DNA of 64,000 bases from NCBI GenBank assembly GCA_963931925.1, contig OZ007579.1, positions 51,538,119 through 51,602,118 of the forward strand, read 5' to 3'. Under the pieces are notes generated by a model, which ran no database searches, was not told the DNA's origin, and saw only the letters and a list, made by a program, of their open reading frames with translations. Position numbers and translations under genes: made by a program. Source of the stretch: Onchidella celtica (Eukaryota; Mollusca; Gastropoda; Systellommatophora; Onchidiidae). Of the stretch, positions 3,226-63,203 are shown piece after piece (position 1 is the stretch's first letter; each line of letters starts with the position of its first letter).

Positions 3226-3579
3226 ATGGTATCACCTCGCGGCAGTGCCAACTGGAGAAATCGGACTGATATTAATATCAAACAAGCAGAGTCCAATTCT
3301 TTCAATGTGTTCTATACTAATGCCCGTTCATGCAGAAACAAAATCGACCAATTACATGACTTGATTGCGGAAACGAACAGTGATCTTATTCTCCTTACTG
3401 AAACCTGGTTTCGGCCAACTGATGATAACTTTATGCTTCGTTCAGCTTGTCCAGTGGGCTATTCCTGCGATTCATGTCCTCGCAAAACTGGTGAGAGTGG
3501 GGGCTTAGCCGTCATTATGACAGACAATCTCTTTCATGTAAGCAAAGTTACATCTATAGACAACTACTACTTGTTTGAA
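3226..3579 (+). pseudogene. L2-like LINE, part 1: start of apurinic endonuclease
   Basis: The frame encodes the N-terminal part of an APE-type endonuclease: FYTNARSCRNKIDQL, then LILLTETWFRP and GGLAVIM. It runs to NYYLFE, where the RTE-like LINE begins. Parts 2 and 3 lie at 6810-7431 and 12752-14788, and their reading continues across each insertion. The true 5' end is not visible but may abut the TA at 3100. The element is on the same strand as ELOA. Confidence 0.75.
3573..3579 (+). repeat. Target-site duplication, left, of inserted RTE-like LINE
   Basis: GTTTGAA occurs at 3573-3579 and again at 6810-6816, directly on either side of the inserted LINE. Allowing one mismatch, the duplication extends to 9 bases. 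Confidence 0.75.
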
Positions 3580-6500
3580 CGCCTGTGCAGATGCGAGGCC
3601 CTCTTGCAGAAGAGGGACAGCAAAGAATACATCTGACGTGATACTGCGTGTCGTAAGAGGTGACTAAAGGTGCAAAGGTCCTGGTCTCCCGAGAAGAGCC
3701 AGTTGGCGGTGGGCCAACTACCCACCCTGTAAAAATAAACCAGTTACAGAAACACAAGCAAATACTTTAAATCAGTCTTTTATCTTGGGAGAAGGGGGAG
3801 CATCTGCACCTGTAGATTCAATGAAGGACAATGGACAAATCCGAAAGGACTCCACTGGCCCGACTGCTCCTTCATCAAACAAGTCACTCCGGATTGCGTC
3901 GTGGAATGTCCGCTCCATGTATGAAGCAGGAAAGAGTGCCCAGGTTACAAGAGGCGATACAGACTGCACATACTTGGAGTTAGCGAGACCCGCTGGATAC
4001 AGTCCGGACTGAAACAACTTAATTCTGGGGAAAATATTTTGTATTCTGGAAGGGAGGACAAAAAGCATACAGAAGGAGTAGCGATCATCTTGAGCAAGCA
4101 CGCCCAAAGGTCACTGAGGGGATGGGAACCTTACGGAAGGAGAATTATACTAGCATCATTTACTACAAAGAACAAGAACATCAACATGAACATTGTGCAG
4201 ATATACGCCCCAACAAATGAAGCAACCGATGAGGACAAGGACGATTTCTACAACCAGCTTCAGGAAATAGTTGACACATTGCCAAGAAAAGATGTGAACA
4301 TTATAATGGGAGACGCCAATGCCAAGATAGGACAGGACAATACAGGGTATGAGGACATTATGGGGTGCAATGGTTTGGGACAAATGAATGAGAATGGAGA
4401 GCGGTTTGCAAGTTTCTGCGCATTTAACAGCTATGTGATTGGAGGTTCAGTATTCCCACACAAGAGGATCCATAAGGCCACTTGGATTTCACCGGATGGA
4501 GTAACTGAAAACCAGATTGACCACTTTTGCATCACCCGATGATTCAGACGCTCACTGGAGGATGTCATAGTACAGAGAGGAGCTGATGTTGGATCTGACC
4601 ATCACATGCTGCTGGCAAGACTCAAACTCCGCCTCAAGAAACAAGGTACCAGAGCAGGAACAAAGAGGAGAAAGTTTCAAGTGAGCCTTCTGGATGGAGA
4701 CAAGAAGGAAGAGTTCCAGCTGACACTGAGGAATAGATTCAAACCCCTTGTTGACCTCGAAGAGACAGTAGATTTGGAGACTCACTGGGCTAAGGTAAAA
4801 GGAGTATTTACATCGACATGTCAGGATGTTCTTGGGGAAAAGAAAGTGGATCACAAGGAATGGATCAGTCAAAAATCACTGGACTTGATAAGGATAAGAA
4901 GAGACCTAAAAGAACAGGTAAATGCAAGTCGTACAAGAAGCTCAAGAGTTGGTAACCAGGAAGAGTACTGAGCATCAGCTAAAGAGGTCAAAAAATCAAT
5001 TAAAAAAGACAAAGAGGAGTTCATAGGAATGTTAGCAGAGAAAGCAGAGAAGGCAGCAACAGCAGGACACATGAGGATCCTCTACCAGACTACAAAGACT
5101 CTTGCTGGAAAATATGGAAAACCTGAAGTTCCTGTCAAGGACTACAACAGGAAGGCTATTTTTGGAAAGGAAGCTCAGGCAAAAAGATGGATAGAACATT
5201 TTAACAGCCTCTCGAACAGACCTCCACCAAGCAACCCACCGGACATTCTACCCGCAAGAAATGATTTACCGATCAGTTGCGACCCTCCGATTAAAGTAGA
5301 GATTAATGATGCCATAAAGCAGTTAAATCGAGGCAAGGCAGCTGGACCAGACCAGATCCCACCAGAGGCGCTGAAGGCAGATGCTTCTGGGGCTGCAGAG
5401 GGTCTGCACTCACTATTCTCGAGGATTTGGATCGGAGGCAAGTTTCCAAAGGGCTGGAAGGAAGGACACCTCGTGAAGCTTCCAAAAAAAGGGGACCTCA
5501 GCAATTGTAGTAACTACAGAGGAATCACACTTCTCTCCATCCCTGGAAAAGTTCTCAATCGGATTATTCTCAAGCGAATACAGAATGCAACAGACCCAAA
5601 ACTTCGTGAGGAGCAAGCTGGTTTCAGGAGTAATCGATCAACCACCGACCAGATCGCCACGCTGAGAATCATAGTAGAGCAGTCACTAGAGTGGAACTCC
5701 CAACTGATAGTGACTACGAGAAGGCCTTTGATAGCATCGATAGAGAAACACTGTGGAGAATATTGAGACATTATGGAATCCCAGAGAAGATGGTGAATCT
5801 TATCAAGAGCATGTACGAGGGGACAAGTTGCAGAGTCGTACATGATGGTGAGCTTACTGACAGCTTTGATATCAAGACTGGTGTTAGGCAGGGTTGTTTG
5901 CTGTCCCCATTTCTGTTTATCCTGGTGATTGATTGGCTTATGAAAGAAACCACCAGTGGAGGAAGAAATGGCATACAATGGACCCCATGGACACAGCTGG
6001 GCGATCTAGATTTTGCAGATGACTTGGCACTATTGTCGCATACACACGACCAGATGCAAGCAAAGACTACAGCTCTAAACAAAATTTCAGAATCTATTGG
6101 ATTGAGGATACATCCTGCGAAGTCGAAGGTCCTAAAAATTGTTGCACCCCCAAGCGAACAAGTCAGAGTAGGAGATCAACCACTGGGAGATGTAGAGTCC
6201 TTCTGCTATCTTGGTAGTATCATTGACAATAAGGGAGGAACAGAGGCAGAAGTCAAAGCACGAATTGGAAAGGCACAGGCAGCTTTCACGTCCTTAAGCA
6301 AGATTTGGAGAACCAAGGATATATCTCTAAAAACAAAGCTGAGGATATTCAACTCGAACGTGAAGTCAGTCCTGTTGTATGGATGTGAGACTTGGAATGC
6401 GTCCCAGGCCTGCATAAAGAGAATCCAAGTTTTCATCAACAGATGTTTGAGGAAGCTACTTAAGACCAGATGGACAGACAAGGTCAGCAATGAAATTGTA

Positions 6501-6809
6501 TGGAAAAGAACAAGACAGAGCCCAGTCAGAGAGGAAATTGGTAGGAGGCGATGGAGATGGATCGGCCACACTCTCAGGAGGTCAGGAAACAGCATCACGA
6601 AGAAGGTGTTGGATTGGAATCCCCAGGGCAAGAGATCAAGAGGAAGGCCGCGCGGAACGTGGAGAAGAGCCAGAGAAAATGATGTGCAACGAAGCGGAAA
6701 GACTTGGAATAATATAAAGAGGCTGGCCCATGATGGAGAGGGATGGAAAGTGTTTGTTGGTGGCCTATACCCTGATCCAGGGTGAGAAAGGCAATGATGA
6801 TGATGACTC
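3580..6809 (+). mobile_element. Near full-length degraded RTE-like LINE
   Basis: A 3.23-kb element that begins with a non-coding leader (containing CCCACCCTGTAAAAATAAAC), continues through a broken endonuclease-reverse transcriptase frame, and ends GGCAATGATGATGATGAC. It interrupts the L2-like LINE and is bordered by GTTTGAA on both sides. The short ATG-repeat tail in place of poly(A) is characteristic of RTE-type elements. Its 3' end is shared with the fragments at 2520-2874 and 56323-56701. Confidence 0.85.
3785..6785 (+). pseudogene. RTE-like endonuclease-reverse transcriptase, inactivated
   Basis: The order is endonuclease (ASWNVRSMYEAGK; IIMGDANAKIG; TENQIDHFCITR), then reverse transcriptase (NYRGITLLSIPGK; DYEKAFDSID; GVRQGCLLSP; catalytic LDFADDLALL near 6010), then a basic tail with [10 protein letters not shown] and [14 protein letters not shown]. 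At least four lesions are visible: a frameshift near 3950, in-frame TGA codons at 4540 and 4969, and a small deletion plus frameshift near 5700, just before the first catalytic Asp. The catalytic residues survive but the chain cannot be made in one piece. It is an old copy compared with the element at 8067-11488. Confidence 0.88.
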
Positions 6810-7431
6810 GTTTGAAGTTTGCGAGGTGGAATGTGCTCTTGAGCAGTCCTTGACCTTTCTACTCATATACCGACCTCCTCCCAGAATAAAAAATAAACTT
6901 TCAAAAGTTTCATTTCTTAATGAATTCCGGAATATAATTGAAAAGTATTTGGACATGAGATGTCGGATGATTATTATAGGAGATTTTAATATTCATTTTG
7001 AATCCAAAACCAATGCTGACAGCAAGTCACTCAAATCACTTCTTGGAAGCTATAGTCTTGAACAGCTAATCAAACAACCAACACATAAAGCGGGGCATGT
7101 TATTGATTGGTTAGTTACTGGGAGAGAGGCCAAACACAATATCGAAAATTTATCAGTGGATGACAATGGGATTTCAGACCATTATCTGGTTACTTTTGAG
7201 TTGAATTTTTCCAGACCGAAGCCAGCTGAAGAAACAAATATTGTCAAGAAAGCTCAGCATGTTAATATTGAGGCTTTTACAAAGGACACCATAGACTCTA
7301 CATCAGCGACAACTGATTCAGATGCCTTAAATGATCAGTTGAAGGTTGTTATAGACAAACATGCTCAAGTGAAAACGCAAAGCATCACTTCACGTCTTTC
7401 TGCAAAACAGAAGCGGCAACGGCTGGAGAGA
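6810..7431 (+). pseudogene. L2-like LINE, part 2: rest of endonuclease
   Basis: The frame resumes at SFEVCEVECALEQSL and carries LLIYRPPP, IIIGDFNIHFES and DDNGISDHYLVTFEL. The last of these holds the SDH-type catalytic motif of APE endonucleases. If one copy of the GTTTGAA duplication is ignored, it joins part 1 in the same frame. It stops at KQKRQRLERSW, where a second, larger insertion begins. Confidence 0.78.
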
Positions 7432-7580: not shown

Positions 7581-7906
7581 TGTTCAGATGTTGAGAATGA
7601 GTGCAAGGATTGCAGGATGACACTGGTCAACACAAAATGATGGCCCCCAGACAGGAATAATATAGCTTCTTCATTTCATATGTAGTACCTGTATCATTTT
7701 GAAAAAGAAAAAAATTGAGTTGACCGGAAATTAGTAGTCAGCCTTCTTGGGGGGGGGGGGGGTCGCATTGACCATAGGAAATTTTATTCTGCCATCATCA
7801 CTGGTCCCTAAACGCAGGCAAGCCCATTACCACAAGTTAGTTCTTCATCACGCCCACCGGTAGTTCAGTATAATCATAGTAAATGGTGCTTTTTTTGTTT
7901 AACTAT

Positions 7907-8066
7907 TATTTGATGCTCTTTTCATTCATATTTCTCATGTCTGAGCAATTTCCATCGGATATCGTTAAAATGTATATGGCCACCGATTTCACTGGGGAGT
8001 GGGGATTACAATTCGGAGAAAGAGCAAATGAATTTCCCAGTGTGAATGGAACAGGCATGGCCATAT
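7907..8066 (+). repeat. 160-bp target-site duplication, left copy
   Basis: Bases 7907-8066 and 11489-11648 are identical over all 160 positions by eye. They begin TATTTGATGCTC and end GGCATGGCCATAT. The bases just outside differ (T versus A at the left limit, T versus A at the right), which fixes the borders of the element between them. Unusually long duplications are known for some RTE-clade LINEs. Confidence 0.9.
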
Positions 8067-11000
8067 TTGGCGTACGGATGAGCGCCAGGGGTCCCCTCTG
8101 TCGGTGGGAGCGGCTTTTCAGCTGCATTGATCAACTACCGCCCGCCGTAACCTGGGCAGCCCCCAGGCAGTTGGGTGTTGTTCCGCCACGTCAGCCTGCT
8201 TCATAAGGTGGTTGGAGCTAGACCAAAAGTCGAAAAGCTGACGTAAAGTGTGCACCTGGCAAAAACAGAAAAATACTAAAACTTGGTACCTGGAACGTCA
8301 GAACAATGCACCCAGGCTTGCAACAGCAAGATCTCACTGATATTGACTCCATCAGGAAATCCCAAATTATTGATCGAGAACTTCAGCTACTAAACATCGA
8401 CATCGCTGCCCTTCAAGAAACTCGACTTCCCGACTCCGGGTCAGTCAAAGAAGAAAACTACACTTTCTTCTGGCAGGGCCTTAGCAGCGAACAGCCGAGA
8501 ATCCACGGCGTGGGCTTCGCCATAAAAAACTCCCTTATCAATTCGATCGCAACTCCAATTGGAGTGTCAGAACGCATCATGACACTCAGACTGAACACCC
8601 GGTCTGGTTTTACCAACATTATCTGTGTCTATGCCCCAACACTTACCTCCTCTGACGAAACCAAAGACATTTTCTACGAGGCATTGCAGAGGACTCTCCA
8701 CAACATCCCTCTCACCGAAGGCCTGCTAATTCTGGGTGACTTTAACGCTCGAGTGGGAGCAGATCACTCCGCATGGCCAAAGTGCATTGGGCACTTCGGC
8801 ATTGGCAACATCAACGAAAACGGGCAGCGCCTTCTGGAGCTATGCTCCGTAAACTCATTATGTGTTACAAACACGTACTTTGACCTTAAGAGATGCCAAA
8901 GAACATCATGGCGCCATCCCAGGTCTGGCCATTGGCATCAATTAGATCTTATTCTCTCAAGGAGGAAGAGTTTGGGCTGTATAAAAATAACTCGTTCCCT
9001 CCACAGTGCTGACTGTGACACCGACCATGCACTGGTAGTCAGCAAAATCAAAATTTCGGCCAAGAAAATATATAGATCAAAAGCCCCTTCAATCCCTAAG
9101 ATCAATGTAACAGCAATCAGAGATGAATCAAATAGAAAGTCATTTGAAAAGTTATTTGCTGAAAGCATGGATAATGTCACCCAATGTGACTCGGTAGATG
9201 AAACATGGAACACTCTCAGTTCAAAAATTCATGACTGTGCCATCAAGTCTTTTGGACAGCATAAAGTTTCAAACAACGACTGGGTAGCCCAGAACAGCGA
9301 AATTCTCCTACCTCTCATTGAGCAAAAGAAATCTGCTTTCAATGAGTATAACAAAAATTGCAATCAGAGTACAAAAACTTGTTTGAAAAATGCAAAAGCT
9401 AAACTTCAGCTGGAGGTAAGACGTTGCGCCAACAAATACTGGACAGACTTGTGTAACAGCATACAAGAGGCAAATGAAAAGGGAGATATGAAAACCGCCT
9501 TTAGTCAGATGAAAGTAGCTCTTGGGCCAATCATCACCAAAAGCGCCCCACTTAAGTCTGTAAATGGTGAACCCATCACAGATAAAAATGAACAACTGAA
9601 TAGGTGGGTAGAGCATTACTCTCTGTTGTATTCAACTGAGAAAAATATACCACCAGATTTTGAGGAACACCTCCAAAAACTGCCAATAATGACCGAACTT
9701 GACGCTGAACCTTCCTTAGTCGAGCTTTCCAATGCAATCGACCACCTGTCTGCTGGAAAAGCCACAGGAAGTGACAACATTCCTGCAGAGGTATTAAAAG
9801 ACCTAAAAGGCCCACTATTACCACACCTGTATAATCTGTTACTGCAGTGTTGGAAAGAAGGCGTGATACCACATGATATGAGAGACGCCAAAATTGTCAC
9901 ACTTTACAAGAACAAAGGAGACAAAGGCGACTGCAACAACTATCGAGGCATATCCCTCCTCAGCATTACTGGAAAGGCTTTTGCTCGCGTCATCCTCTGC
10001 CGCCTTCAACAACTGGCGGAAAAAGTCTTACCAGAAACACAATGTGGCTTTCGAAGCAAACGATCAACTATTGACATGATATTTGCACTTCGGCAAATCC
10101 AAGAAAAATGTAAAGAACAAAACAGGCCGCTTATAACATGCTTTGTGGACCTAACAAAGGCTTTCGACACCGTAAGCCGATCTGGCCTGTATGCAGTCCT
10201 TAAATCCATAGGCTGTCCACCAACATTGCTAAAACTTATTGCATCCTTCCACACTGACATGAGGGCATGTGTCAACTTTGAGGGCTGCACATCCAATTCA
10301 TTTGCTGTAAACAGCGGTGTGAAGCAGGGATGTGTTCTTGCTCCTACCTTATTTGGTATATATTTTGCAGCCCTACTCAAGAATGCCTTTGGTCAATGTT
10401 CAGGTGGAGTACTTATTAACACCAGAGTGGACGGCTCCATTTTTAATGTTGCCAGACTAAAAGCAAAATCTCGTACAGAGCATACTATGTTACAAGAGCT
10501 CCTCTTCGCAGATGATGCTGCAATCGTGGCCCACGATGAAACCACGCTCCAGGCTCTCATCAATAGCCTTGCCAAAGCCTGTGACAAATTCATGCTAAAG
10601 ATCAGTGTCTCAAAAACTGTAGTTTTGACACAAGGCTTGAGAAACCCCAACCCAATCATGCTGAATGGCTCTCCTCTGGAGCAAGTGGGAAAATTCTGCT
10701 ACCTAGGCTCAACCATCAGTGGTAGCACAGACATAACAACTGAAATAAATGCCAGAATAGGAAAGGCGGCCACAGCTTTTGGCAAACTCTCAAAAAGGGT
10801 GTGGAACAATAGCAAGCTGACCATCAAAACAAAGGTACTCGTGTACCAAACTTGCGTCCTAAGCACCCTGCTGTATGGCTCAGAGACATGGACCACCTAC
10901 TCCAAACATGAAAGATCCCTCAACTCCTTCCACCTGCGCTGCCTACGCAAAATTCTCAAGATCAAGTGGCAAGACAGGATCTCAAATATCGAAGTTCTGA

Positions 11001-11488
11001 GCCGAACCAACATTCCATCAACTCAGGCTCTCCTAGGCAAAAAAAGACTGCGGTGGCTTGGACATCTCCACCGTATGGAAAATGATCGCATCCCCAGACA
11101 AATTCTCTACGGGGAACTTGCTACTGGCAACCGACCCAGAGGTAGGCCACATCTGCGATTCAAAGACACTTGCAAGGTCACGATGAAAGCATTCAACATC
11201 GACCCCAATGAATGGGAGAACCTTGCAAATGATCGAAGCAGATGGAGACAAAAATTGCGCAGTGGCACGCTCGCAATAGACTTCAAGGCAAAAGAAACAT
11301 ACCTGACAAAACGACAGAGGCGGAATGAAAACACTCGCCAAAGTGAACCCAAAAGACTGACCTGCAATCACTGCCATCGCACTCTCGGGTCAAACATTGG
11401 TAGAATAAGCCACGAGAGAAGCTGTCAGTCAAAATGAAAGTGAATATTCTAGCTGCTAAGACCGTCTGTAAAGACGCTAAAGGCCATA
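8067..11488 (+). mobile_element. Complete, apparently recent RTE-like LINE
   Basis: A 3422-base element between the identical 160-bp repeats. It has a GC-rich leader of about 155 bases, one long open frame, and a very short 3' end (about 50 bases after the stop) with neither poly(A) nor a microsatellite. The leader can form a hairpin at 8068-8087 (TGGCG/CGCCA) and another at 8151-8167 (CCTGGG/CCCAGG). Identical flanks and an unbroken frame imply recent insertion. Confidence 0.9.
8306..11437 (+). CDS. Intact LINE endonuclease-reverse transcriptase, 1043 aa
   Basis: It nicks target DNA and copies its own RNA into it. The endonuclease has ETRLPDSG, VYAPT, LGDFNARVG and CDTDHALVV. The reverse transcriptase has NNYRGISLLSITGK, VDLTKAFDTV (catalytic Asp near residue 620), SGVKQGCVLAPTLFG and LLFADDAAIV (catalytic pair near 734). 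The tail has CLRKILKIKWQD, LRWLGHLHRM and a C-terminal CNHC followed by HERSC, a zinc-finger-like motif. The first ATG falls inside the conserved endonuclease start: the LGTWNVRTM motif is coded just upstream and the frame is open back to 8222 (stop TAG at 8219). No ATG precedes the motif, so the real start may be non-ATG. There are no internal stops or frameshifts. Clade assignment (RTE-like) is from memory of such proteins. Confidence 0.92.
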   Translation: MHPGLQQQDLTDIDSIRKSQIIDRELQLLNIDIAALQETRLPDSGSVKEENYTFFWQGLSSEQPRIHGVGFAIKNSLINSIATPIGVSERIMTLRLNTRSGFTNIICVYAPTLTSSDETKDIFYEALQRTLHNIPLTEGLLILGDFNARVGADHSAWPKCIGHFGIGNINENGQRLLELCSVNSLCVTNTYFDLKRCQRTSWRHPRSGHWHQLDLILSRRKSLGCIKITRSLHSADCDTDHALVVSKIKISAKKIYRSKAPSIPKINVTAIRDESNRKSFEKLFAESMDNVTQCDSVDETWNTLSSKIHDCAIKSFGQHKVSNNDWVAQNSEILLPLIEQKKSAFNEYNKNCNQSTKTCLKNAKAKLQLEVRRCANKYWTDLCNSIQEANEKGDMKTAFSQMKVALGPIITKSAPLKSVNGEPITDKNEQLNRWVEHYSLLYSTEKNIPPDFEEHLQKLPIMTELDAEPSLVELSNAIDHLSAGKATGSDNIPAEVLKDLKGPLLPHLYNLLLQCWKEGVIPHDMRDAKIVTLYKNKGDKGDCNNYRGISLLSITGKAFARVILCRLQQLAEKVLPETQCGFRSKRSTIDMIFALRQIQEKCKEQNRPLITCFVDLTKAFDTVSRSGLYAVLKSIGCPPTLLKLIASFHTDMRACVNFEGCTSNSFAVNSGVKQGCVLAPTLFGIYFAALLKNAFGQCSGGVLINTRVDGSIFNVARLKAKSRTEHTMLQELLFADDAAIVAHDETTLQALINSLAKACDKFMLKISVSKTVVLTQGLRNPNPIMLNGSPLEQVGKFCYLGSTISGSTDITTEINARIGKAATAFGKLSKRVWNNSKLTIKTKVLVYQTCVLSTLLYGSETWTTYSKHERSLNSFHLRCLRKILKIKWQDRISNIEVLSRTNIPSTQALLGKKRLRWLGHLHRMENDRIPRQILYGELATGNRPRGRPHLRFKDTCKVTMKAFNIDPNEWENLANDRSRWRQKLRSGTLAIDFKAKETYLTKRQRRNENTRQSEPKRLTCNHCHRTLGSNIGRISHERSCQSK

Positions 11489-11648
11489 TATTTGATGCTC
11501 TTTTCATTCATATTTCTCATGTCTGAGCAATTTCCATCGGATATCGTTAAAATGTATATGGCCACCGATTTCACTGGGGAGTGGGGATTACAATTCGGAG
11601 AAAGAGCAAATGAATTTCCCAGTGTGAATGGAACAGGCATGGCCATAT
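11489..11648 (+). repeat. 160-bp target-site duplication, right copy
   Basis: Identical to 7907-8066 and directly following the LINE 3' end. The element ends AAAGGCCATA and the duplicated target itself ends GGCCATAT, so a short microhomology may have helped priming. Confidence 0.9.
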
Positions 11649-12751
11649 AATTTTTGTAACTACAGTAGGGTGGTTTTCAAGGGTTATGGGAGTAAAGACA
11701 GTCACAGCTGCAGCTAGCCATTTTCTTAACTGTTACTGGCCTTGAGTACCATTACCAGTTTCCCAAAGGTCAGGGGGTTTGACGGACTTTTTCCCAATGA
11801 GAAATCATCTTTTAATTTGGCATCGTTCTGTGTGATACCCATCGTATCTCCTCATGGTTCATTTTCCACCACATGTTGTGCTTTGCCTTGGCATGCATCA
11901 GCTTGGTATTGAATTTTCACTCCACAGTTATGCGTCTGTACTCCAACACTAGTATGGGGATAAGGGGCGATGTCGACAACACTTGATAGTGCTTGGAAAA
12001 TGCAAAAAAAATATGCCAGTCTACTGATCTATGCAGTAATCAAAGAATGAGATTTCAGTACATCTCATGTGAATAAATCTGGCATTAAAGGAACAGACAG
12101 ACTAGCTTTTTTTTCTTGTTTTTAGTTAGTCCAATGCCCACTTAAGGGTGAGGGCGGGTCCTGAAATCGAAAATAGGCTTCAGAATACTGGTATCGAGAT
12201 TTTGTACGTTTTGGTTTCTTTATCTGTTTGGGAACACTATTTTACCTAACCATATGCCAATTTTGAATGTTTATAATCCTGAAATATGTCTTTTAGTGAG
12301 ATGGGGATCAAGGAAAAGGCACAGAATCATGCCATTGAGCCGCAAAATTAGCCCTAAATAACATCTCAGTGTCGCCACCAAAACCATGAGTTTTAATGAA
12401 TACTTGGTCTCGAGACCTTGTTGTCCACATGTCTAGGTCAAGGTAACAGGCCTGAGACATCCCATTCCATTCTATACAAACATACAATATCATTATACTG
12501 TTGGCACTGCAATAATAAAACGTAAAAGGGTGCGTGATCACCCCCGACCTTCACCTCGCCTCCTTTTCACTGATTGGTTGGCTGTAAACAGAGCAATAAA
12601 TTGCTCTTAGTCATTGGCTGGGGCGAAGCTCATGTCCTCCATACGTACCAGATTTAGATCGTGACCTACATAATTGCGTAAAAAGTACAGTGTTAGCTGA
12701 CTAGACAGTGCTTTTGTTTCAAGTTTTTGTTTTTATAACGTTGGGGCAGCA

Positions 12752-14788
12752 GAGAGAAAATGGAGAAAAACCAAATTGACTGTACACAAAGAAATCTATG
12801 TGCACAATACTAACAATGTAAAAGAACTTATCCTAAAAGAGAGAAAAAATTATTTTAATGCCAAAATTTTAAAATGTACAAGTTCAAAAGCACTTTTTAG
12901 TGTCATTAATGAAATGAAAGGAAAATCTTCTACATCTTTGCCCTCCACAATAGCAACAGCAAGCCTCCCTGACACATTTGGGCAGTATTTTATTAACAAA
13001 ATTTCTAGGATCAGGAGTGGTCTAGACGATGACTCATGTACATCTGAGTCCAGTAATGACTATTTTAACTGTTTTGATGGTTCATATTTTAATGAGTTTA
13101 AGCCTGCAACACCAGAGGAAATTAAAAAGATTATTATGACTTCACCACCCAAATCATGTCCTCTTGACCCTATCCCAACTACTCTTCTGGTTCAATGCCT
13201 TGACTCCCTTCTTGATATTATAACATCTATTGTCAATCAATCTCTTCAAACAGGAATTGTTCCAACTTGTTTCAAAGAAGCCATCGTTATTCCATTATTG
13301 AAAAAACACAACTTAGACTCTGAGGACCTAAAAAATTATCGCCCAGTTTCTAATCTTTCTTTTATCTCAAAGATCCTAGAAAAAGTAGTATTGGCTCAAC
13401 TTAAAGATCATTTAAAAGCTAATAACCTCATAGAAAAATGTCAATCTGCATATCGTGAACATCACAGCACTGAAAGTGCACTTCTAAGAATTGTTAATGA
13501 CATCTTACGATCAAGCGATGAGGGCAACATTACCATTCTTACGTTGCTAGATCTATCAGCCGCTTTTGATACCATTGATCATTCGATACTCCTTGAAAGA
13601 CTATCTCTAACATCTGGAATCTCTGGCATAGTTTTGTCATGGTTCAAGTCTTACTTGACAAAAAGATCTCAGTCAGTGTTTATTCAAGGTAGTTATTCTA
13701 CCAAATTCCAACTTAAATACGGAGTACCACAAGGTTCTGTTCTGGGCCCTGTTTTATACACCTTGTACATGTCACCATTAAGTAAAGTTTTTGTATCACA
13801 CAGTATGAAATATCACATGTATGCAGATGACTCGCAGCTTTATGCAGCATCTCAGTTGGTTGACTTTCCTTCACTTGTGAGTCAAGTTCAAAATTGTTTT
13901 GACTCTGTAAAAACCTGGATGCGTACCAGCAAGCTCCAGCTTAACAATGACAAAACCGAGGTTATGCTATGTGCCACTGAATCAAAGCTAAATAAGATTG
14001 AGGTCAGTGAAATACAACTAGCTGACACTGATATTCATTTTTCAGAGAAAGCAAAAAACCTGGGTGTCTTTTTGGACAAAAATCTTTCCATGGAGTATCA
14101 GATTAATTACATCACCAAATCAATGTTTTTTGAAATACGAAGGATTTCACGTATGAAATCTGTTCTGACTCAGGAAGCAGTGAAAACATTAGTTATCTCC
14201 TTGGTTTTGTCTCGCCTTGATTACTGCAATTCACTCTATGCTGGTCTCTCAGATGAAAAGATTTTTAAACTGCAAAAAGCACAAAATTGTGCGGCTCGTT
14301 TAATTCTTGGAAAGTCAAAATTTGAAAGTAGCACAGAAATGCTCAAAATCCTTCACTGGTTACCAGTAAAAGCCAGAATAGAATACAAAATTGCTGTGTT
14401 TTGCTACTGTAGTGTCACAACAACTGCACCTGCATACATCAGTGAACTTCTCTGTCCCTATGCTCCTCCCAGGGCCCTGAGATCTCAAGACTCGGAGCTC
14501 TTGGTGGAACCTAGGTGCAACCTCAAAACGTTCGGCGACAGGTCATTTAGTAAAATTGGACCTGCATTATGGAACTCACTACCAAATTCCCTGAGATCAG
14601 CATGCAGTGTAGAGAGTTTTAAAAAACAACTAAAACCTCACCTGTTTCAAAAATATTTAGATAAATGATTTGTGTGTGTGTGACCGTTCTTTAGTATGTA
14701 TGTGTGCGCGTATGGTGGACAATGTTAAGCGCCTTGAGGCCTCGGCGAAAGGCGCTATATAAATGCTCTTATTATTATTATTATTATT
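12752..14788 (+). pseudogene. L2-like LINE, part 3: reverse transcriptase and 3' tail
   Basis: An open stretch of 630 codons (12776-14668) carries KNYRPVSNLSFISKILEK, DLSAAFDTIDHSIL, YGVPQGSVLGPVLYTLY, catalytic YADDSQLY near 13815, LGVFLDKNLSM, SRLDYCNSLYAGL and LHWLPVKARIEYK. This series is typical of L2/CR1-group LINEs. After the stop come GGCGCTATATAAATGC and (ATT)n to 14788, the usual L2-type 3' end. The reverse transcriptase frame is still open. The element is dead only because insertions split its 5' half. Confidence 0.85.
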
Positions 14789-22870: not shown

Positions 22871-22990
22871 AAAGTTGAGAAGAGCAGGCCTAAGAATTAA
22901 AAATTATAAAAAAAACTTATCCTTACTTCAAACACAAGAAGAATAAAAAATGTAAAAAACAAGACTAGCAAGATGTAAATGCCAGGAGCA

Positions 22991-23462
22991 GTGAAACCTC
23001 CTAAAATAAAGAGCTAAAGCAAATGTCTATCTTGGACCCACAAGCTGCAGTGAAACCTCCTAAAATAAAGAGCTAAAGCAAATGTCTATCTTGGACCCAC
23101 AAGCTGCAGTGAAACCTCCTAAAATAAAGAGCTAAAGCAAATGTCTATCTTGGACCCACAAGCTGCAGTGAAACCTCCTAAAATAAAGAGCTAAAGCAAA
23201 TGTCTATCTTGGACCCACAAGCTGCAGTGAAACCTCCTAAAATAAAGAGCTAAAGCAAATGTCTATCTTGGACCCACAAGCTGCAGTGAAACCTCCTAAA
23301 ATAAAGAGCTAAAGCAAATGTCTATCTTGGACCCACAAGCTGCAGTGAAACCTCCTAAAATAAAGAGCTAAAGCAAATGTCTATCTTGGACCCACAAGCT
23401 GCAGTGAAACCTCCTAAAATAAAGAGCTAAAGCAAATGTCTATCTTGGACCCACAAGCTGCA
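22991..23462. repeat. Minisatellite, 8 identical 59-bp units
   Basis: Units start at 22991, 23050, 23109, 23168, 23227, 23286, 23345 and 23404. Each begins GTGAAACCTCCTAAAATAAA and ends GACCCACAAGCTGCA. By eye all eight are identical, so the array is very young, actively homogenised, or an assembly effect. No start codon or promoter was seen in it. Confidence 0.95.
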
Positions 23463-24404
23463 GACTTTCATGCAAATCAATCAGCTGTAAAAGTACCTGT
23501 ATTCTGATGTGCATTCATATTGATGTTAATAATTTCCATCCTTCTTGTCATGAGTAAAGAAACATCTTTGTCTTAAAAATGACAGCTCCCATCTCATGTT
23601 CCACCAAATGTCTAGAACATCCAGGAGCATACATGTATGAGCAAGCACAGATTCTGGGAAAAGATTGTTTTTTTAACATGGATAATTCGCCCCAACAACA
23701 CGTTAGCTAGGAGTGCGCCATTTTATTAAAGATCCATGTCATATTACTTATGTGTTATATATGATAATATACAGTGTATGTTTTTGAGGTTTGCCATGTC
23801 CATGAATTATTTATACATGTAATACGTAAGATGTGTTGTGTGTGTGCTTTGAATGTTACACACTGTGAAAATGGGATAATAAAGTTATTCAAATCTTATT
23901 TGCTGTGGCTTAATGATGATTATATGTACATACATGTATATAAATGTAAATATTGTCTGCCTTAATATTATAATAATAATGAATATGTATCATATTGATG
24001 CAGATTGTAATACATTTGTAATTGTAAGCCTGCCCCTGTAAATGAGCTTGTATGTGGAGAGAGGACATTGTAATGTTGTCTATATAAAAAAACAGCAAGG
24101 AAAAAAAATTCACTGCTGCGAGGAAGAAATGCCCAGACCTGAAAAAATTACATGTGAAAGATAGTTCTTTTTGCTACTATGTCTATTCCTTTGACATGAA
24201 AGCGAAGTATCGTAATTTTGTAATGAATGAAAATAGGCCTAAAAACATCGAATAATGCTTTCTCCCCAACAATGATGGCCTCCCTCCTGCCTGTTTCGTT
24301 TCGACTTTAGTACCGTGCATGTCATAAAAAAATAACCATATCAAGCTTGGTGCGCAGTGTCCTGGCGCGCATGAGTTCTGAAGCAGGACTGCAGATTACT
24401 ACTT

Positions 24405-61504: not shown

Positions 61505-62002
61505 AGTACCACTGGGCCTTTTCTTGCGCCGTTCTCTTTTTTTGATAGCCTGCTGGACTCTGTCAGCTTCCCATGCTTTGCTGCCTCTGGTAAGGGCCGC
61601 CCTCCAATTTGCACGATCAAGCGAGAGCTTTTCCCACTCACTCACATCAATGGCAAAGGCCTTCAGTGATTGCTTGAGAGTGTCTTTGTAAAGTCTCTTT
61701 GGGGCCCCAACATTCCTCGTTCCATTGGAGAGCTCAGAGAAGATTTGCTTAGGGAGTCTGGAGTCGGGCATTCTGACAACATGTCCTGCCCAACGTAGCT
61801 GAATTTTTTTCAGGTGGCAGAAGATGCTCAATTCCTTGGCACGATTGAGGACCTCAGTGTCTGGAATTTTATCCTGCCATTTGATCCTTAGGATCTTTCT
61901 AAGGCAGGCCAGATGAAAGTGATTTAGCTTTCTGGCATGCGATTGGTACACTGTCCAGGTTTCAGCCCCATAGAGTAGGGTGGGAAGGACCACAGCATTG
62001 TA
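61505..62002 (-). pseudogene. RTE-like LINE, C-terminal region of the polyprotein
   Basis: Reverse-strand frame with YNAVVLPTLLYGAETWTVYQ, CLRKILRIKWQDKI, LRWAGHVVRMPDSRLPKQIF and WEKLSLDRANWRAALTRG. It is homologous to the same part of the intact LINE at 8306-11437. It is cut upstream by the gypsy LTR at 62003 and downstream by the solo LTR at 61504. The remaining frame is open. Confidence 0.85.
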
Positions 62003-63203
62003 TGTCACAAATCCCAGACTGGGAGATGTAATAGTTTATGACAGGACGACAATCACGAACAAACGAGTTTAACACTTAACAAAACAACCCATCAGACTCA
62101 CACATTTATTAAACATAAGTATACATATAATAGCGCAATTACATACATTATATTATTGAAATGACTGCCGTACAACGGCCTTATTCTCACACACACTCTC
62201 CCGCGGATCCACAATCCGGTAGTCACTCCTAAAGGCACTTCGGCCTCAGCCTCTCCCCTCAGGGTCTTAATAGCACATTAATAATTTACTGGCACCGCAG
62301 TCTCTCAATATCCCCTCCCTATTGTCATACACCTTAGCACTCCCCTAGCACCTCAGCAGGGCAACAACACATTATTAGTTCACTAGCCTATCAACATGGC
62401 AACAATATAGTATCTCATTCACTCTCATATCTACGTCCCTGTCCGTGGCCTGACTGCCACGACTTTATGTGCCTCTACTGTCCTGTACTGCCAGCCTCAC
62501 TTCTGGCCTATGTGTGGCCTCCGGCCCTAGGCTGGCCTATCCCTTGTGCTCATCGAGGTGGCTCTTCGGCCCGTCCCCGACACCTACAAGAATAACATTA
62601 CATTGGTATAATACCCTACCATTTCTATTCACTCCACCTCTCCTTACAATCCATGAAGCGTACACACACTAGTTCACCTTTCACTCACCACACATTTTAC
62701 GGTAACACACCTCCATCGGAGTACACACTACTCACTCGCGCTACAAATCCATGAACTCACTTTCATCTATCGCTCATGGCGCACATTGCTATATCCAATA
62801 TCAAGGACTTCCACATTCCTCACATATACTTATTTACATCATGGTAATAGACGAATATAATATAATACATCAATCATAAAAATCAATCAACGTTCTACAT
62901 ACCAGTCATTACTGGAACAACACTCATCCGTCTCCCGACTGCTTTCACTTATGTCCGCCCGCTGGGCTCTTATTCACAGGTCCGCTCCGTCGGGCCTTCT
63001 AACTTGCAGTGATAGTTATACAGCGCTTTCGCCTCCTTCAGACCCCCACACCACTCATACACGCACGCTTTTCCCACTTGTCTGCATGAGTTATTTTTAC
63101 TCTTCCCCTTTCACGTCTTTTCCTATCCGTCTGTCGTGAGCTCTTCTTATTCTACACCCGCTCTGTAGCAATCCCCTTAATTGCACTCACTCCACTCGTG
63201 ACA
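62003..63203 (-). mobile_element. Ty3/gypsy 3' LTR
   Basis: Reading on the reverse strand, it begins TGTCACGAGTGGAGTGAG at 63203 and ends CTGGGATTTGTGACA at 62003. A polypurine tract precedes it. It inserted into a LINE (target side TTGTA at 61998-62002). It is the same family as the solo LTR at 43799-44990. The other end of the element lies beyond the window. Confidence 0.88.

Follow-up and report, generated by a model that had tools for sequence, protein, structure and literature searches.

Insertion of a LINE into an old dispersed repeat of Onchidella celtica with a target-site duplication of about 160 bp

The window we investigated, a stretch of 64,000 nucleotides from the gastropod Onchidella celtica (contig OZ007579.1), contains a LINE that is bracketed by two identical direct repeats of 160 bp. 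The arrangement very probably arose when a single LINE inserted into an old dispersed repeat by target-primed reverse transcription, with a target-site duplication (TSD) of 158-160 bp. The usual length is 10 to 20 bases; the insertion process itself is known, and a duplication as long as this is an uncommon variety of it. The left copy of the TSD (7907-8066, forward strand) and the right copy (11489-11648, forward strand), whose starts are 3,582 bp apart, are the same at 160 of 160 positions in a direct string comparison. In a self-comparison of the window the pair is found with E = 2.3e-78, which rules out chance. The identical repeats on both sides of a LINE, which the original prediction had pointed out, are thus present as described, with an endonuclease-reverse transcriptase (EN-RT) element in between. 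The maximal match between the two copies is 160 bp; because the dinucleotide TA is common to the 3' end of the element and the target, the true duplication measures 158, 159 or 160 bp.

The duplicated sequence has relatives elsewhere in the genome. A search of 1.14 Gb in 43 contigs with the 160-mer, whose counts are lower bounds, gave at least 16 scored places, and only the two positions in the window match at 100%. The others, at least 14, are 69-82% similar to the 160-mer along a part or almost the whole of its length, which shows that the 160 bp belong to an old dispersed repeat. We compared six of the 14 matches outside the window (L003-L008), each with flanks of 1.5 kb. LINE sequence was found in none of these six loci, neither in the relative of the 160-mer nor in its flanks (blastn, E up to 1e-3), and in a multiple alignment the relative is present once in each locus, in L006 as two collinear pieces.

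To these six loci we also aligned an empty-site construct, in which a single 160-bp copy joins the two flanks. Gapped alignments span the left junction (7906/7907) in five of the six loci (L003-L007) and the right junction (11648/11649) in one (L008). In the flank beyond the left junction the five alignments have 19/25, 11/14, 33/50, 90/138 and 21/31 identical columns, and beyond the right junction 40 of 62 columns are identical; L004 and L008 match further left in the flank as well. In the multiple alignment L003 and L005 have TATTATTTGATGC at the left junction, and L004, L006 and L007 have near forms of it; the alignment of the right flanks is poor. These empty sites, whose alignments contain gaps, are paralogous copies with a similarity of about 68-74%, and not an exact empty allele. 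From the flank alignments, the native context of the left copy is well supported, and that of the right copy is supported by one locus.

One alternative explanation is that the 160 bp are the element's own terminal direct repeat, similar to an LTR and travelling with the element. Fresh terminal repeats would also show perfect identity; however, in all six of the 14 loci compared the relatives of the 160-mer lack the LINE and align into the same flanking sequence, and the element in between is an EN-RT LINE and not an LTR element. The original prediction had read the repeats as a target duplication, with the reservation that other copies might carry the 160 bp as part of the element. The six relatives of the 160-mer point the opposite way and favour a target duplication. 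We regard a terminal repeat as extremely improbable, and the same six relatives, all without the element, speak against an LTR retrotransposon. It is also conceivable that a tandem 160-bp duplication existed in the target beforehand and the LINE inserted at its boundary, or that a later duplication or an assembly error produced the second copy. Tandem arrays do exist elsewhere in the window, without lending this explanation direct support. Against it, the edges of the repeats coincide with both ends of the LINE, so that a prior tandem pair would fit only by chance, and the six relatives carry the 160-mer once. We consider these explanations very unlikely, the pre-existing tandem duplication included.

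The inserted LINE between the two copies of the TSD (8067-11488, forward strand) is 3,422 bp long, with both ends defined from this single copy. Upstream of the main ORF it has a mini-ORF of 42 codons (8078-8206, forward strand), which shares the frame of the main ORF, ends with TAA at 8204-8206 and is followed by a further in-frame TAG at 8219-8221. The open EN-RT frame (8222-11437, forward strand) encodes 1,071 aa plus stop, or 1,043 aa counted from the first ATG at 8306, and matches three Pfam models at E up to 0.001: RVT_1, Exo_endo_phos and Exo_endo_phos_2. The AP-type endonuclease domain (PF03372; 8288-8971, forward strand) starts upstream of the first ATG. With the upstream residues it covers profile positions 2-205 of 225 at 47.6 bits, and read from the first ATG it covers positions 20-204 at 41.5 bits. 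The reverse transcriptase domain (PF00078; 9923-10714, forward strand; 3.6e-33) contains the last three of the strings LQETR, GDFNA, DHALV, TKAFD, GVKQGC and FADD, which we picked from the translation, where they occur in that order, and which we take to be endonuclease and reverse transcriptase motifs. Near the C-terminus a Cys/His-rich stretch, CNHCHRTLGSNIGRISHERSC (11363-11425, forward strand), looks like a zinc finger by eye; no Pfam family scored above its cut-off for this stretch. The 3' untranslated end (11438-11488, forward strand) has 51 nt and no poly(A); it ends in GGCCATA, and the next TA (11489-11490) is the one common to the target. Among solved structures the relatives of the whole ORF are L1 ORF2p and R2 proteins. 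The endonuclease alone gave only ABC-transporter matches with E about 0.6, which we read as chance, and a structure prediction for a frame of 1,066 aa, made without an alignment, was uninformative (mean pLDDT 34.4).

The claim that the endonuclease-RT frame is unbroken holds only in part. The frame is indeed open from 8222 to 11437; however, the first strand of the endonuclease, TWNVRT, lies upstream of the ATG at 8306 and is read only if translation starts upstream of it, and between 8222 and 8306 the open frame has no in-frame ATG. Because an in-frame ATG is missing ahead of the first endonuclease strand, the intactness of this copy is unproven. Either initiation is unusual in this LINE family, or the copy is not fully functional. 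The original prediction had called the family likely active, which this single copy does not establish.

The anatomy of the element and the signature of its insertion site suggest that it belongs to the RTE group. As in other non-LTR elements, the endonuclease and reverse transcriptase domains are in one protein. This protein is encoded by a single ORF of 1,043-1,071 aa, in which Pfam finds at E up to 0.001 nothing other than the two endonuclease models and RVT_1. To our knowledge, LINEs of the RTE clade have no RNase H. RTE-1 of C. elegans, as far as the available part of its description goes, is similar in having one long EN-RT ORF (1,066 aa). For RTE-1 a possible first ORF of 43 aa that overlaps the main ORF is described; the mini-ORF here, with 42 codons, comes close to it but does not overlap the main ORF, whose frame it shares. 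AP endonuclease and reverse transcriptase are common to this element and RTE-1, BovB, SR3 and the lepidopteran RTEs, and its short 3' end and the T-run and T|A at its insertion site resemble theirs, again judging from the available portions of the sources. The 3' UTRs of RTE elements are described as very short, with AT-rich short repeats (PMC1291365, in part); the 51-nt end of this LINE differs in having no clear tandem repeat, only TATA at its end.

The site signature known as Tn-TA, which according to the accessible text of PMC13295347 is found in BovB and other RTE-clade LINEs, consists of at least three T about 10 bases upstream and T|A at the nick. A T-rich run as in this signature, TTTTTTTGTTT (7890-7900, forward strand), is located just upstream of the putative first nick. 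The sequence of the site in the 159-bp register is CTTTTTTTGTTTAACTATT|ATTTG, with CTATT|ATTTG on the top strand, and the T-runs end 11 and 7 nt before the T|A nick, at this single site.

The length of the duplication sets this insertion apart from the RTE-clade LINEs, whose published values, in the parts of the papers that we could consult, range from 6 to 20 bp compared to 158-160 bp here: 10-12 bp for SR3 of schistosomes (PMC1291365), 6-12, 10 and 20 bp for lepidopteran RTEs, with "differing lengths" in Bombyx (PMC2887409), and 11 bp for RTE-5_PGo (PMC6522560). The BovB study, in its available part, looked for duplications of 10-49 bp only (PMC13295347). The original prediction had stated that long duplications are reported for RTE-clade elements. 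The literature examined, which is not exhaustive and was available in part, does not bear this out: it contains no long duplication for an RTE element, and the long ones it records are those of R9 and L1. The C. elegans element Rte-1 is said to have been found with a duplication of about 200 bp.

L1 ends in poly(A), which the element described here lacks. The two also differ in their sites, L1 preferring TT/AAAA (PMC2912911, in part). L1 in human cells is nevertheless similar in that it makes duplications of more than 100 bp by target-primed reverse transcription (PMC5223499). According to the available text of the respective sources, the duplications of full-length human L1 peak at 14-16 bp (PMC2912911), and those of human L1 in general range from several to several hundred nucleotides (PMC1291365). 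Duplications longer than 100 bp make up at most 10% of the events in HeLa cells; they were found in 4/7 events in XPA-, 21/23 in XPC- and 22/28 in XPD-deficient cells, and in 3/9 in complemented XPD cells (PMC5223499, in part). The second likeness is to R9 of bdelloid rotifers, which makes a target duplication of 126 bp (PMC6895275); R9 is specific for rDNA and related to the R2 clade, whereas this LINE encodes an AP endonuclease and is located in a dispersed repeat. The 160-bp duplication is therefore unusual in length and not new in kind; it has precedents.

If the insertion took place by target-primed reverse transcription, the element's own endonuclease would have cut into the bottom strand where the duplicated stretch begins on the left, and the exposed end would have served as primer to reverse transcribe the LINE RNA, starting at the 3' end of the RNA. 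The top strand would then have been cut 158-160 nt further right, and the fill-in of two long single-stranded stretches would have copied the same bases to both sides. The order of the nicks, and the assignment of the first to the element's endonuclease, probably hold but are drawn from the arrangement of the sequence.

The great distance of the second cut from the first may be explained in at least two ways, both of which take the repeats as a TSD. One is that host repair set the length: flap processing failed, a second-strand break arose far away, and the length is uninformative about the element. In human cells the flap processing is nucleotide excision repair, and long L1 duplications are frequent in XPA-, XPC- and XPD-deficient cells (PMC5223499, in part). 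We lean slightly towards this explanation; against it speaks that in one of the three possible registers the second cut, like the first, falls at the pentamer AT|AAT. This holds for both nicks if the duplication is 159 bp long, and not if it is 158 or 160 bp. Within the 600-bp empty-site construct, the top strand has no AT|AAT downstream of the first nick other than that at the second, and the bottom strand has none other than that at the first nick. A match to the first nick as good as this, in any of the three registers, would occur at about 0.7% of random positions; this figure has to be read with the fact that the pattern was noticed post hoc, in one insertion, and that the figure is uncorrected for other patterns that might equally have been accepted. 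The other explanation is that the endonuclease of the element makes both nicks at AT|AAT, and that the distance to the next AT|AAT on the opposite strand, not a fixed stagger, sets the length of the duplication; we consider this improbable. The sequences around the two cuts are often unrelated to each other, and how LINEs place the second-strand cut remains unclear (both from the available part of PMC6895275). For this problem, an AP-endonuclease LINE with a clean duplication of 160 bp and both nick sites readable is a useful data point. Should duplications throughout the family be long or set by a motif, the selection of the second nick would become testable from sequence alone.

On a genomic scale this is a young insertion. 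The lack of any difference in 160 bp limits the pairwise divergence to at most 1.9% (95% bound), and if rates of 1, 2 and 5e-9 per site and year are assumed, the age of the insertion is less than about 9, 5 and 2 My, respectively. The complete identity had been taken to suggest an insertion too recent for mutations to have accumulated; this goes further than the 160 bp allow, as a divergence of up to 1.9% is compatible with them. The age does not require that the insertion is polymorphic today.

The insertion lies in a region of nested LINEs. One of them, by eye similar to CR1, is interrupted in its endonuclease part (from 3226) by a second LINE at 3580-6809; joining the flanks of the latter gives a continuous frame. 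The second LINE is split over two frames, has a TGATGATGA-type tail and is flanked by the 7-bp TSD GTTTGAA (3573-3579 and 6810-6816). Its protein sequence is related to the ORF of the LINE flanked by the 160-bp repeats (30.6% and 32.2% identity over 520 and 367 columns, E = 8e-108), and it differs from that LINE in its 7-bp duplication, its tail, its two frames and its insertion in the CR1-like LINE. That this LINE, though a different element, made a duplication of only 7 bp counts against the reading of the 160 bp as a long TSD. A reverse transcriptase ORF at 12776-14668 may, by eye, continue the CR1-like LINE, and comparing it to the ORF of the 160-bp-flanked LINE gave no match at E 1e-3.

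A search for HDV-like or other Rfam ribozymes in 7800-11800 returned only two snoRNA matches below their gathering scores. Across the whole window nothing in Rfam reached its gathering score, three weak miRNA matches outside the LINE likewise remaining below theirs, and the window contains no tRNA. Searching for relatives by pattern gave 11 matches in contigs of prokaryote genomes and 3 in viral contigs, and tblastn confirmed none of them. Within the window, a fragment related to the 160-bp-flanked LINE is located at 61574-62008 on the reverse strand.

The second LINE of the window (3580-6809) is nested within another LINE that, by eye, is CR1-like. It ends in the tail TGATGATGA, and its coding part is divided between two frames. 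Whereas the LINE at 8067-11488 (+) is flanked by a 160-bp duplication, this neighboring insertion in the same window is bordered by a 7-bp duplication, GTTTGAA (site including duplications, 3573-6816). The 3' end at 6453-6803 is also found at 2520-2870 (98.3% identity across 351 bp), where it presumably represents a 5'-truncated insertion.

An open frame of 630 aa with an RT domain (12776-14668) likewise appears CR1-like on inspection by eye and may be the downstream portion of the LINE interrupted at 3580. The protein encoded by a LINE-related fragment at 61574-62008 (-) is 52% identical to residues 845-990 of the ORF of the LINE at 8067-11488, and the fragment belongs to a family that is related to, but distinct from, that of the latter.

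The 3' end of the LINE at 8067-11488, together with the TA it shares with the duplicated target, reads GGCCATATA (11482-11490). The right-hand end of the target is GGCCATAT (8059-8066, and again from 11641), to which the right flank adds an A, so that 11641-11649 is the same as 11482-11490. This match may be due to chance, or it may have played a part in priming.

A tandem array at 22988-23463 (59-bp unit, 8.1 copies, 100% matches) is either very young or homogenized.
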